A program made the translations under genes and the position numbers. DNA of 45,724 nt, taken from positions 1 to 45,724 of the forward strand of contig CAIYOZ010000415.1 of assembly GCA_903927945.1 (NCBI GenBank). The letters run 5' to 3'. Shown here in pieces: positions 7,440-26,134 of the stretch. The number at the start of each line of letters is the position of its first letter. Position 1 is the first letter of the stretch. The notes under the pieces were generated by a model, which saw nothing but the letters and a program-made list of their open reading frames with translations, searched no databases and had not been told where the DNA came from. The stretch is from an uncultured Bacteroidales bacterium (GTDB lineage Bacteria; Bacteroidota; Bacteroidia; Bacteroidales; Paludibacteraceae).

Positions 7440-9095
7440 CTAATTGTTTACCCGAAACCAGTCCACGTCTGCATACCCCGAGTCATTGCTTGCACCCGGG
7501 CGTGAGCAATAAAGCCCGACCTTTGCTCCAATCCATTTCCCTTCGCGTGCTGTAAAGGCTGTTCCAAGTATTTTAAAGGAAGATCCATCAGTACTGTAAC
7601 TGAATGTGCAGGTAGCTTTTGGTTCATTTATTCCATCCTTGTTCATTTCTTTCGTTTGAGTCACCTTTACCCGCAAATAAAGGGTTAACTGTGTGAGAGC
7701 AACCGAGGCATGAATCGTTTCTGCAGTTCCTTTATCGGCATTCAGGCAAGATATCTGATTTAGCATGAATCCTTTCCCTGTATTTTCAAGGGTTAGTGAG
7801 GCATAATTCAAACCCATCACCACAAGCCCTGTACGCTCGCCTATTACCATGGGGGTAAAAGTCAGTTTTGTAGTAGCGCTGAAATTGGGAGCAGGGAACT
7901 TCTGAAGGTACAGGTTGGGTGCATCCCACAGGTTTTTAGCCTCACCAGCCAACTGCCAGGAGAACAGACGCAAATACCCTCTATCGCCGGCGCAATAATA
8001 CCACAGCGGGTTGCTATTTGCCTGCCACTGCCATTGAAGGCTCGGGGTTAGTCCATTAAATTCATCGCTTTCTGCGGGAGTGGCTACAGGATATGTTTTC
8101 CCCACATCAGGCTTACTATACGTTGAAACGGGTGTTCCGCAACCTGTATTTTTATTATCAATTCCGATAACCGGCCAGTTGTCCACCCATTTCATTGGTT
8201 GTAATAATACGGCACGGCCATAGGCATACAAGTCCTGGAAATGCAGGAACCAATCCTGTTTCCCATCGGGGGTATCCACCCAGGCACCCTGGTGCGGACC
8301 GTTGATATCTGACTTCCCCTGTGCCATGACCTGTTTTTGTTCGTAAGGTCCGTAGATGCTTTTCGAACGCAGTGACAGCTGCCAACCGGTTTTCACTCCT
8401 CCTGCCGGGCAAAAGATATAATAATATCCGTTCCTCTTGTAAAACTTCGGACCTTCTGTGGTTGAATTATCGGGGTGACCATCAAATACCAGGCGGCTTT
8501 CGGTGATTGCCTTCATACCATCGGGTGTCATTTCGAAAATTCCGAGCACGCTTTTCATACCGGCACGGCTTCCGGCATAACCATGCACGACGTAGGCTTT
8601 TCCATCTTCATCCCAAAAGGGGCATGAATCAATGAGTCCTTTCCCGGCTTTGACCAGGGTTAAGGGTGACCACGTTCCAACTGGATCGGTGGTTTTTGTC
8701 ATGTAGATACCGGCATCGGGATCGCCAAAGTAAATATAAAATTCATTGTTATGATACCTAATGCTGGGAGCCCATACCCCGTTGCCATGCTGCGGGATAG
8801 TAAAGCGTTCTTCGGGTTCCATTTTCTGAAGAGCATATCCGATGATGGTCCAGTTTACCAGGTCATTTGAATGAAGTATTGGAAGACCCGGTATGCAGGC
8901 AAACGATGAAGCAACCATATAATAATCATTGCCCACCCTGCACACGTCAGGATCGGAATAATCGGCATACAGGACAGGATTCTTGTAATGGCCATTTCCC
9001 AAATCGGATACCCAGGTGTTGGAAATATTCTGAGCAACCAATGAAATACTACTCAATAATAAAAATGAAAGGAAATATCTAAAATGCTTTTTCAT
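7440..9095 (-). CDS. GH43 family glycoside hydrolase (beta-xylosidase or arabinofuranosidase type)
   Basis: A 551-residue protein with a signal peptide (first 21 residues, cut near AQ). The five-bladed propeller domain spans about residues 36-320. The three expected acids are visible: Asp48 in YADYSDPDV (base), Asp156 in LIDSCPFWDEDG (pKa modulator) and Glu214 in TTEGPKFY (acid). The C-terminal 200 residues form the beta-sandwich usual for xylosidase-type members, which look most like subfamily 12, though I cannot confirm that without a search. There is no sorting domain or lipobox, so a periplasmic site is expected. It is the last gene of the left arm and has part of the bipartite motif upstream at 9136-9183. 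It probably removes xylose or arabinose side groups from imported pectin fragments. Confidence 0.9.
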   Translation of the reverse strand: MKKHFRYFLSFLLLSSISLVAQNISNTWVSDLGNGHYKNPVLYADYSDPDVCRVGNDYYMVASSFACIPGLPILHSNDLVNWTIIGYALQKMEPEERFTIPQHGNGVWAPSIRYHNNEFYIYFGDPDAGIYMTKTTDPVGTWSPLTLVKAGKGLIDSCPFWDEDGKAYVVHGYAGSRAGMKSVLGIFEMTPDGMKAITESRLVFDGHPDNSTTEGPKFYKRNGYYYIFCPAGGVKTGWQLSLRSKSIYGPYEQKQVMAQGKSDINGPHQGAWVDTPDGKQDWFLHFQDLYAYGRAVLLQPMKWVDNWPVIGIDNKNTGCGTPVSTYSKPDVGKTYPVATPAESDEFNGLTPSLQWQWQANSNPLWYYCAGDRGYLRLFSWQLAGEAKNLWDAPNLYLQKFPAPNFSATTKLTFTPMVIGERTGLVVMGLNYASLTLENTGKGFMLNQISCLNADKGTAETIHASVALTQLTLYLRVKVTQTKEMNKDGINEPKATCTFSYSTDGSSFKILGTAFTAREGKWIGAKVGLYCSRPGASNDSGYADVDWFRVNN

Positions 9096-24201: not shown

Positions 24202-24236
24202 AACGCCTGATTGAAATTCAATCGGGCGTTTTTTTA
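24202..24236 (+). terminator. Intrinsic terminator of the large beta-helix protein gene
   Basis: A 13-bp stem with one G.U pair (24202-24214 with 24218-24230), a 3-nt loop and six T residues lies 28 nt after the stop codon. Confidence 0.85.
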
Positions 24237-24377: not shown

Positions 24378-24586
24378 TTCATTCGTGGATGCTTCGTGGT
24401 TCATTCGTGGTTCATTCGTGGACATTACATAGATGTTACATAGACATTACATATATATTACATATACATCACATATTTATATAGGTATGTAATATCTATG
24501 TAACATCTATCTAAAATCTATAGGATACGTAATTTTTAATGACGAAGCATCCACGAATGAACCACGAAGCATCCACGAAGCATCTA
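24378..24586. repeat. Palindromic element built from 11-bp units (element 2)
   Basis: Outer arms of 29 bp are perfect inverted copies (24382-24410 and 24551-24579). Each arm belongs to an array of four 11-mers: on the left ttcattcgtgg or atgcttcgtgg (24378-24421), on the right cgaagcatcca or variants (24543-24586). Inner arms of 22 bp are inverted copies with one mismatch (24431-24452 and 24487-24508) and are also 11-bp arrays (acattacatag, atgttacatag and so on). The whole could fold into one long stem. It occupies the 664-bp spacer between two convergent genes. No ORF is present. Confidence 0.85.
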
Positions 24587-24752
24587 AGGACCTTTCTAGT
24601 ACGATCTAAGGACATGAATAGAATCATCTCCAGGAATCAATACGATTGCAGTTGTTCAGAGCAACAGGTGCACTTAAAATAACACTTCCCCATTTTGATC
24701 GGTGCAGGGTGTTTAGCAACACTCAATGGTATCAGATTTCACATTCAGGCAT

Positions 24753-24784
24753 AAAAAAACAGCAGACAAATCTGCTGTTTTTTT
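24753..24784. terminator. Bidirectional intrinsic terminator
   Basis: A perfect 14-bp stem (24753-24766 with 24771-24784) with loop CAAA has A-runs and T-runs at its ends. It lies 55 nt beyond the stop of the minus-strand GH28 gene and would end the right-arm transcript. Confidence 0.85.
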
Positions 24785-24838
24785 ATTTATTGGTAAGTAC
24801 GCTATGTATCGTCAAGGGGAAGTAAGCAAGTAGAATTT

Positions 24839-26134
24839 TTATTTCTTTAAGACAGGCTTACCGGAAGATAGATCAATTCCTGTCGGTGAACATCGATAGG
24901 TGACAATGGCATCACCTCCTGAAACATTCATCGTGGAGTTTTTAAATTCAACGTTTTTGGCATTATTCAAAACCATGCTTTTCTGAGCATTGATCTGGAC
25001 ATTGTCAAACAGCACATTGGTGACCGACAGCTCAGGAAGACCCCAGATGACACCTGCACTCTCACAATTTACAATCCGTATATTCCTGAACGTGATATTG
25101 CTCCAGGAAGGCGTTTTGTCACTGACAGCCTGTGCGGTATCGTCCTCGGGGCTTTTAGGAACTTTGGGGTAATAGCTTTCAATGGATATTGGCCAGCGTA
25201 CATTACTGATGGTCAGGTTGGAATAGGTGATGTCCGTTTCACCGCCACCACGGTTCCTGTTGCTTTTCATACGGATAGCCGAAGTTGTTCCTTTAAAAGT
25301 GCAGCTATCCACCAATACATGTTTCACGTTGTGGGTAAAGCTTCCAATGGAACATCCATGCCCGGTGCCAAAGGTACATTTCTTAATAGTAATATGTTGG
25401 GTTTCTGAATCCATGGCAATGTTGTCGTCGCCACAGGAGATCGAAGAGTTTTTAATCACGATGTTGGGTGCCCAGGTATCAATTCCATCGCTGTTGGGAG
25501 CATCGGAGGGCGTATCGATGGTAATGCCATCAATGGTCACATCCGAAGACTTCTTGCCAATGGCAATGTGCACATTGGGTGCATTGATCAGTTTTATGCC
25601 ATTTATTTCGGCATACCTGCAACCGTTGAAAGCAATCAGGCAACCCCTTTTCATGACAATAGCGGTGCCTTTAATGGCTCTGTACGCACTCCACCAGTCA
25701 GCACCCTGGCCGTCGATCGTACCTCTACCACTTACCCGGATATTCGAAACATCTTTGCCTGAAATAAAGCTTGGATAGACACCTGGTTTCCCTGCATTGG
25801 GATACGTACCCGGACGTGTACCATCACCATGCCCATAAGGCAGCATTTTCAGCACACAGCCTTCTGCAAGGTGAAGTTCGGTTTTATCCAACAGATTCAG
25901 CGGGCCACATAAAAACACTCCTTTGGGTACTATCACTACACCTCCACCACCGGCAGCGCATTTATCGATCGCTTTTTGAATGCATGCTGTATTGTCGGCA
26001 GAGGCTGTGGAAGCACCAAAATCGGTAATAACGAACTGCTTTGAAGGAATCTTCGGCAATGCTATTTCAGCACGGGTGTACCATCCTGTAAACAGGAATA
26101 AAAAGAGGATTCCGTATAATTTTTTGTTTTTCAT
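24839..26134 (-). CDS. GH28 polygalacturonase-type enzyme, no sorting domain
   Basis: A 431-residue GH28 enzyme, the shortest of the four here. It has a signal peptide (about residues 1-22) and ends soon after the beta-helix (GIDLSSGKPVLKK), so it lacks the T9SS tail carried by its close relatives and is probably periplasmic. Signatures: Asn214-Ser-Asp216 with Asp219, Asp236-Asp237 in CGDDNIAMDS, His259 in GTGHGCSIGS, and Arg288-Met-Lys290. The N-terminal half is very similar to the enzymes at 9253-10857 and 27787-29364, down to the LPYGHGDGTRPGTYPN and RGTIDGQGADWWSAY segments, suggesting duplication. A terminator-like hairpin (26185-26219) lies upstream, so it may be expressed at a lower level by readthrough or from its own promoter. 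Confidence 0.93.
   Translation of the reverse strand: MKNKKLYGILFLFLFTGWYTRAEIALPKIPSKQFVITDFGASTASADNTACIQKAIDKCAAGGGGVVIVPKGVFLCGPLNLLDKTELHLAEGCVLKMLPYGHGDGTRPGTYPNAGKPGVYPSFISGKDVSNIRVSGRGTIDGQGADWWSAYRAIKGTAIVMKRGCLIAFNGCRYAEINGIKLINAPNVHIAIGKKSSDVTIDGITIDTPSDAPNSDGIDTWAPNIVIKNSSISCGDDNIAMDSETQHITIKKCTFGTGHGCSIGSFTHNVKHVLVDSCTFKGTTSAIRMKSNRNRGGGETDITYSNLTISNVRWPISIESYYPKVPKSPEDDTAQAVSDKTPSWSNITFRNIRIVNCESAGVIWGLPELSVTNVLFDNVQINAQKSMVLNNAKNVEFKNSTMNVSGGDAIVTYRCSPTGIDLSSGKPVLKK

Follow-up and report, generated by a model that had tools for sequence, protein, structure and literature searches.

Anatomy of the Palindromic Element

The window analysed here, i.e., the whole stretch of 45,724 nucleotides on contig C415 of the genome G000 (the "own genome", assembled to 4.47 Mb in 450 contigs), holds a long palindromic element between two convergent genes. 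The element is built of 11-bp units, with TTCATTCGTGG and ATGCTTCGTGG units spaced 11 bp apart within 24378–24586, and is composed of outer arms, a core array, a central dyad ("apex") and an inverted right core (Table 1).

Table 1. Features of the palindromic element and of its immediate surroundings in the window.
Feature	Position	Strand	Comment or basis
Terminator-like hairpin 3' of the upstream + strand gene, outside the element	24202–24230	+	Context
Left outer arm, four 11-mers TTCATTCGTGG / ATGCTTCGTGG / TTCATTCGTGG / TTCATTCGTGG	24378–24421	+	24382–24410 is the reverse complement of 24551–24579
Core array, five direct TTACATA-type 11-mers	24422–24476	+	About 16 other own-genome loci with similar TTACATA arrays
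Apex, 18-bp imperfect dyad CATATTTATATAGGTATG, element centre, overlapping the last array unit	24472–24489	.	Apex pattern: 30 in own genome, reversed control 0
Right core, inverted units degenerating outward	24490–24541	+	Pairing with left core (26 elements) declines outward from 0.85 to 0.40 over the first 60 bp
TAATTTTT, +49 from apex centre, the place of the −7 box TAnnTTTG in copies linked to the gene family A1 (see below); final G missing	24530–24537	+	Sequence
Right outer arm, inverted TTCGTGG-type 11-mers	24542–24586	+	Sequence
Terminator-like hairpin, listed on the + strand, outside the element	24751–24786	.	Context

The outer arms are perfect inverted copies over 29 bp, as had been claimed from the sequence. 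The inverted pairing claimed for the inner arms is likewise present; however, it is weaker than in the outer arms, and the original figure of 22 bp with one mismatch is only approximate (e.g., 24425–24442 with 24486–24503, 18 nt, 94%). The 11-bp period, rightly described as close to one helical turn, stands far above shuffled sequence: across the 210-bp element, identity at lag 11 reaches 0.658 versus 0.277 ± 0.032 in 1000 dinucleotide-preserving shuffles (z 11.9), the left and right halves reaching z 9.3 and 7.8, respectively. Folded as RNA, a 241-nt stretch containing the element yields −101 kcal/mol (z −13.7), which is equalled by none of 200 shuffles, and a search of the window against Rfam 15 gave 0 matches at gathering score.

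That the element is not a normal terminator is borne out by the two separate terminator-like hairpins outside it; in our reading, the hairpin at 24751–24786 would serve the minus-strand gene whose end is at 24839, to which its A-run presents a T-run. The location between convergent genes, also part of the original prediction, is correct for this element but incidental, since among 20 own-genome loci of the family the 16 with clear flanking genes on both sides comprise one convergent, five divergent and ten tandem pairs (ORF-based count). This distribution does not support the suggested end-processing of convergent transcripts, and, together with the separate hairpins on both sides, led us to reject a terminator role for convergent genes.

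Dispersal of the Element

By BLASTN, the window element finds 55 matching pieces in its own genome at E ≤ 10, the weakest of them near chance. The number of loci is smaller because palindromes match on both strands; six loci match over most of the length and many others share the centre only. Related elements are present in congeners, so that the element is a repeated and dispersed one. The original observation is therefore confirmed, as neither of its two refuting conditions, a lack of further copies and an 11-bp autocorrelation no stronger than in shuffled sequence, applies. In the 20 own-genome loci compared, the centre is common, while the outer arms vary by copy and in most copies still pair with each other.

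The general layout comprises the 18-bp apex, about 55–60 bp of 11-mers on each side and outer arms from about 60 bp; the two sides of the apex differ, one being a regular array and the other consisting of inverted units that degenerate outward. Over 26 oriented own-genome elements, the array side at 30–60 bp from the centre is conserved between copies (0.74–0.78) but shows poor pairing within elements (0.40–0.57). At 60–100 bp, arm identity within an element is 0.68–0.81, and same-side arms of different elements are 0.37–0.53 (left–left) or 0.42–0.59 (right–right) identical. The arm mismatches, counted over 697 bp in 18 elements (eight of the 26, with arms needing a gap or pairing poorly, were skipped), comprise nine G-U cases for one strand, 11 for the opposite strand and 47 of other kinds. 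Because this G-U share is about that of random change, the arms look copied as DNA and not kept by RNA pairing. A search for target-site duplications at 17 elements revealed none, the longest word shared by an element's own flanks averaging 5.47, as between flanks of different elements (5.47).

Across 48 genomes of the genus, an apex pattern occurs 30 times in the own genome, 18 times in G007 and nine times in G005 (28, 16 and all nine sites read, respectively), and 0–1 times in each of the remaining 45, a reversed control pattern giving 0–1 everywhere. Single apex matches in G015, G062, G066, G031, G018 and G117 have no array by eye. In a sample of 149 genomes from the whole order, a narrower apex pattern is found in two, one of which is the own genome. 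Such species-specific copy numbers would fit a mobile element. The exact TTACATA pattern was recovered from a collection of genome contigs in four stretches, none of which is shown to belong to the palindrome family.

A Multi-Copy Gene Family with the Same Module Upstream

Three elements (L020, L037 and L038) lie 5' of one protein family, termed A1, which is an uncharacterised, multi-copy family of 269 aa in Bacteroidota. A search of ten genomes gave 72 A1 matches and placed A1 beside eight elements previously found, which differ in unit type; 29 of the 72 loci, mostly those of the strongest matches, were read. With an array defined as a lag-11 identity ≥ 0.55 in a 90-bp window upstream, 22 of the 25 A1 copies having ≥ 500 bp upstream carry one, as do 14 of the 17 copies not picked via an element. 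The same holds for 17 of 507 upstream regions of control ORFs ≥ 250 aa, at least two of these 17 being A1 genes (149 of the 507 ORFs come from contigs chosen for holding elements), and for 1.7% of 1200 random 540-bp stretches. Fisher's test of A1 against the control ORFs, computed with 22/24 (fragment C413 omitted), gives p 2.6e-26. Other lags from 5 to 20 pass at no more than seven of the 25 copies (lag 16), with lag 8 passing in six. The array is missing at G005_C77 and G005_C104, where the strongest periods are 8 and 24, and at the fragment C413. Outside the 25 are C49 and C101, without an array in upstream sequences of 193 and 207 bp that stop at or close to a contig end, as well as C91 and C21 (2–3 bp upstream). 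On these four G000 contigs, the 5' side of the A1 gene is close to the contig end. Upstream palindromes may have broken the assembly there, and the true A1 copy number may be higher.

Typically, about five direct 11-mers are followed by the apex, inverted units, a −7 box TAnnTTTG and, finally, the A1 ORF. The −7 box lies 38–58 bp past the array in 17 of the 22 array-bearing copies; in the other five (C312, C104, G002_C319, C425 and G005_C46), it is found elsewhere or is missing. TAnnTTTG corresponds to the −7 consensus that was deduced for sigma-ABfr of Bacteroides fragilis and later found to hold in Flavobacterium (PMC7366714). This promoter-region role of the module at a multi-copy gene family had not been foreseen by the original prediction.

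The module recurs at A1 in two other families of the order. Among 11 loci read outside the genus, which include six G266 copies besides C4, the lag-11 statistic passes at C4 of G266 (0.62) and in G277 (0.61), falls just under the threshold in G111 (0.54), and is below it in G304 (0.49), L344 (0.48) and G194 (0.38). Of the six other G266 copies of A1 (385–396 bp upstream), five reach ≥ 0.55, one of these (L340) having its best window after the −7 box. Within the order, A1 was detected in 21 of 295 genomes, and within the phylum in 29 of 395, the own genome included; many matches are partial and copy numbers are lower bounds. Comparison of A1 with Pfam, NCBIfam, PHROGs, PADLOC and PDB sequences gave no match above noise, domain-library scans detected no DNA-binding or transposase domain, and A1 was not found in IMG/VR.

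A second uncharacterised multi-copy family, DUF6266 (PF19781; L006:490–1173, minus strand, and elsewhere in G000), was considered as a linked family and rejected. Only one of its 17 own-genome matches, C192, is beside a known element (an orphan palindrome upstream), and two other copies with upstream sequence are without an array (0.45 and 0.47, 66-bp window). A1 has no detectable relation to a DUF6266 member and no DUF6266 hit.

Arrays of 11-bp units are also seen upstream of non-A1 genes, namely TCATTGAACCC (six units), CCTAACGCAAC (five) and ATCTAAGATAC (four to five), at L101:~7930–8060, L188:~7930–8060 and L111:~7670–7800. In a same-genus genome, a stretch without A1 has TTACATA 11-bp repeats (L064:2739–2768) upstream of a gene whose product looks, by eye, like a UDP-2,3-diacylglucosamine hydrolase.

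Turnover of the Unit at a Fixed Period

While the 11-bp period is fixed, the unit sequence turns over. Other copies, in which apex and layout are identical or close to those of the window element, have as their 11-mers AATACATAGAT, ACGTACATAAT, AACGCATACAT, ATAACCCANNN, TAGGTATTATG and ATAATCCATAT. Within arrays, eight contiguous positions show an average conservation of 0.87–0.96 and the other three of 0.64–0.73, as calculated from 49 array windows that are not independent and include a few missing the array (e.g., C104 and G002_C319). The three freer positions vary more than under column shuffling (0.678 versus 0.713 ± 0.007).

The unit can change between close relatives: C312 and G007_C3, whose proteins are 75% identical, have a unit similarity of 0.55, compared with 0.50 for pairs of <40% identity. 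Over 17 proteins (C425, with an in-frame stop, was omitted from the alignment), A1 distance and unit similarity are correlated with r 0.41, with five of 5000 permutations as strong, a correlation that linkage alone predicts; in this comparison, the window of G005_C46 was mis-picked (0.39). Only some of the dispersed unit types have an A1-linked match in the same genome, i.e., TTACATA at C412, and ATAACCCA at C399 and G007_C3; for TAGGTATTATG and CCTAACGCAAC, no such same-genome match was seen.

Orphan and A1-Linked Copies

The −7 box is present at +49 in four of the 26 oriented elements (C56, C189, C234 and the A1-linked C412), hence in three of the 25 elements without a known A1 neighbour. 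None of these 25 orphans shares a contig with any of the 22 own-genome A1 matches, where orphan status depends on a fragmented assembly in which some elements, e.g., C234 and C176, are close to contig ends. Inverted repeats scoring ≥ 15 lie upstream of eight of the 29 A1 genes. Given the rarity of the −7 box in orphans and the few A1 genes with inverted repeats upstream, the dispersed palindromes resemble a version of the A1 control module in which the promoter has decayed while the outer arms have been reinforced.

Interpretation and Alternative Explanations

Overall, the original interpretation is partly supported, and what was an odd palindrome between convergent genes is now read as an orphan copy of a phased operator-promoter module. 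We consider it probable, with modest confidence, that the window palindrome is an orphan copy of the control module found 5' of A1. This module would be an autoregulatory array whose reader is probably A1 itself, and the orphans would behave in a REPIN- or MITE-like manner. Judged from sequence, both of the roles first proposed for the window element, i.e., a site for a DNA-binding protein and a mobile repeat, may be retained.

In the module, about five direct 11-bp sites, each with eight better conserved and three freer positions, lead up to a central dyad; inverted sites follow, and a predicted −7 box is placed some 49 bp beyond the centre. Both this layout and its link to A1 are seen directly. 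The product of the adjoining A1 gene would occupy the array at one site per helical turn and thereby autoregulate A1. The unit word differs among the A1 paralogues within a genome. A single regulator common to all could scarcely recognise every word by sequence, so that A1 is the simplest candidate reader. The spread of orphans may resemble that of REPINs or MITEs, the outer arms then forming the ends, and orphans would serve as decoys or extra targets. Their arms may be homogenised by DNA copying of one arm from the other and not by RNA selection; the arm identity fits template switching between arms, which is reported for inverted-repeat arms in other systems (PMC6649704, PMC8604942).

Among the alternatives, a sequence-blind, phased curvature holds up best, though we regard it as unlikely. 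In this scenario, 11-bp-periodic DNA bends, and the arrays would be curved upstream promoter DNA or sites of chromosome architecture, with the unit drifting, the period holding and A1 merely being regulated. The turnover of the unit at a kept period and the location of the array just upstream of the −7 box are as expected from curvature; however, the division into eight conserved (0.87–0.96) and three freer (0.64–0.73) positions looks like that of a read site, and paired outer arms are not needed for bending.

Distinctly less probable is a neutral by-product, by which replication slippage and hairpin template switching would make and homogenise functionless periodic palindromes. The template-switch literature cited above describes just such homogenisation, and the same genomes carry palindromes of periods 7, 8 and 9. 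Functionless repeats are, however, hard to reconcile with a common apex, about five units, a near-constant distance to the promoter box and the tie to a single gene family, which is seen in more than one of the order's families.

Slightly weaker still, and in our view quite improbable, is a structured RNA, i.e., a transcribed palindrome whose hairpin is selected for processing, mRNA stability or a duplex with a turn every 11 bp or so. In its favour, the helical repeat of the A form is likewise about 11 bp, the fold is very stable (z −13.7), and the stems vary between copies and still pair. Against this, the stem mismatches show no G-U preference (9 + 11 versus 47), terminator-like hairpins flank the window element on both sides, the window is without an Rfam match at gathering score, and in the A1 copies the array lies outside the presumed transcript because it is upstream of the −7 box.

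An invertible (phase-variable) promoter, in which a recombinase would act on the outer arms and flip the promoter between them, would suit inverted arms around a segment able to hold the −7 box in A1 copies, and such promoters are known in Bacteroidales (PMC8748976), but it is very improbable given that most orphans read are missing the −7 box and that the arms vary between copies, unlike the sites of one recombinase.

Relation to Known Systems

Autoregulated plasmid rep loci of the iteron type have about five direct repeats of ~20-bp units upstream of the gene, with inverted partial units over the promoter and a locus-specific repeat. The A1 module resembles them in its array at 22 of 25 copies, its inverted units and a predicted −7 box 38–58 bp beyond in 17 of 22; it differs in the 11-bp units, in its many chromosomal-contig loci per genome and in A1 having no Rep domain match. 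In ParR/parC centromeres, 11-bp direct repeats are arrayed next to the promoter of the operon that encodes their reader. With them, the module shares 11-bp direct-repeat arrays adjoining a promoter, whereas A1 has no match to such families, loci are many per genome and palindromic copies are dispersed without the gene. Like Bacteroidota sigma-ABfr promoters (PMC7366714), A1 copies have the −7 TAnnTTTG, here downstream of the array; in contrast to them, an upstream array of five 11-mers and a dyad are added.

In REPIN/RAYT systems, extragenic hairpins are dispersed in groups, different groups adjoining different copies of the gene family that accompanies them (Bertels & Rainey 2011, PMC3116915), and to this extent the present hairpins, with distinct groups beside distinct copies of a gene family, are alike. 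Unlike in REPIN/RAYT systems, the palindromes here have a greater length and an 11-bp period, their gene-linked copy forms a promoter module, and no short REP core is conserved in inverted pairs: outer arms are 0.37–0.59 identical between copies and the centre is conserved. Nor does A1 match Y1, as scanning 20 members against Pfam, NCBIfam and PHROGs gave no such match. A RAYT association was rejected: of 60 genomes searched, 49 contain Y1_Tnp, and the palindromes are absent from most of these 49. Among the three own-genome matches listed of six, none is near a known element. At one element, L014, a neighbouring ORF is Y1-like by eye only. MITEs, as defined in PMC3116915, are matched in size (about 200 bp), dispersal, lack of an ORF ≥ 70 aa inside most copies and terminal inverted repeats (within-element identity 0.68–0.81 at 60–100 bp), but not in target-site duplication, of which none was found at 17 elements, nor in the outer arms, which differ between copies. 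A parent transposon for the palindromes was not identified.

A bolder proposal may be ventured, which we consider less likely than not. A1 proteins might form a new class of DNA-reading, perhaps DNA-mobilising, proteins with a recognition code that diverges rapidly. Each paralogue would recognise a private 8-bp word, present about five times at intervals of one helical turn in the promoter of its gene; within the genus such words would turn over, and orphan arrays, including that of the window, would spread as palindromes, REPIN-like but without an HUH transposase. The claim to novelty is based on the failure to place the module in any of the systems above and on the empty library searches, function being no part of that basis, and the open-access papers searched yielded no description of such a module or palindrome family. 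Provided that A1 reads the arrays, each genome would be a natural library of protein–site pairs, whose code evolves at constant geometry and which could be used to learn how DNA recognition changes, with the system as a counterpart to REPIN/RAYT that employs a different protein. The module would also offer a first handle on an unnamed multi-copy gene family of Bacteroidota and on a class of intergenic palindromes.

Other Palindromes in These Genomes

Long palindromes with other units are present as well. In the own genome, arms made largely of 8-mers (TTAATTGG/TTGATTGG) are seen at L116:3133–3266, L120:6909–7072, L121:5695–5911 and L134:14492–14672. A 7-mer palindrome (AGTCGGT) lies at L124:1571–1803, and a congener carries one of 8/9-mers (L096:12757–13053); in the 7-, 8- and 8/9-mer palindromes, arms pair well despite varying units. 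Hairpins of the type CCCCTAACCCCTAAAGGGG...CCCCTTTAGGGGTTAGGGG occur in several genomes of the genus and in one of another family (L130:17707, L110:13904, L084:5484, L086:12695 and L142:8419). Finally, a 193-bp imperfect palindrome in G013 (L164:15605–15878), which is without an 11-bp period, folds as a long nested hairpin.
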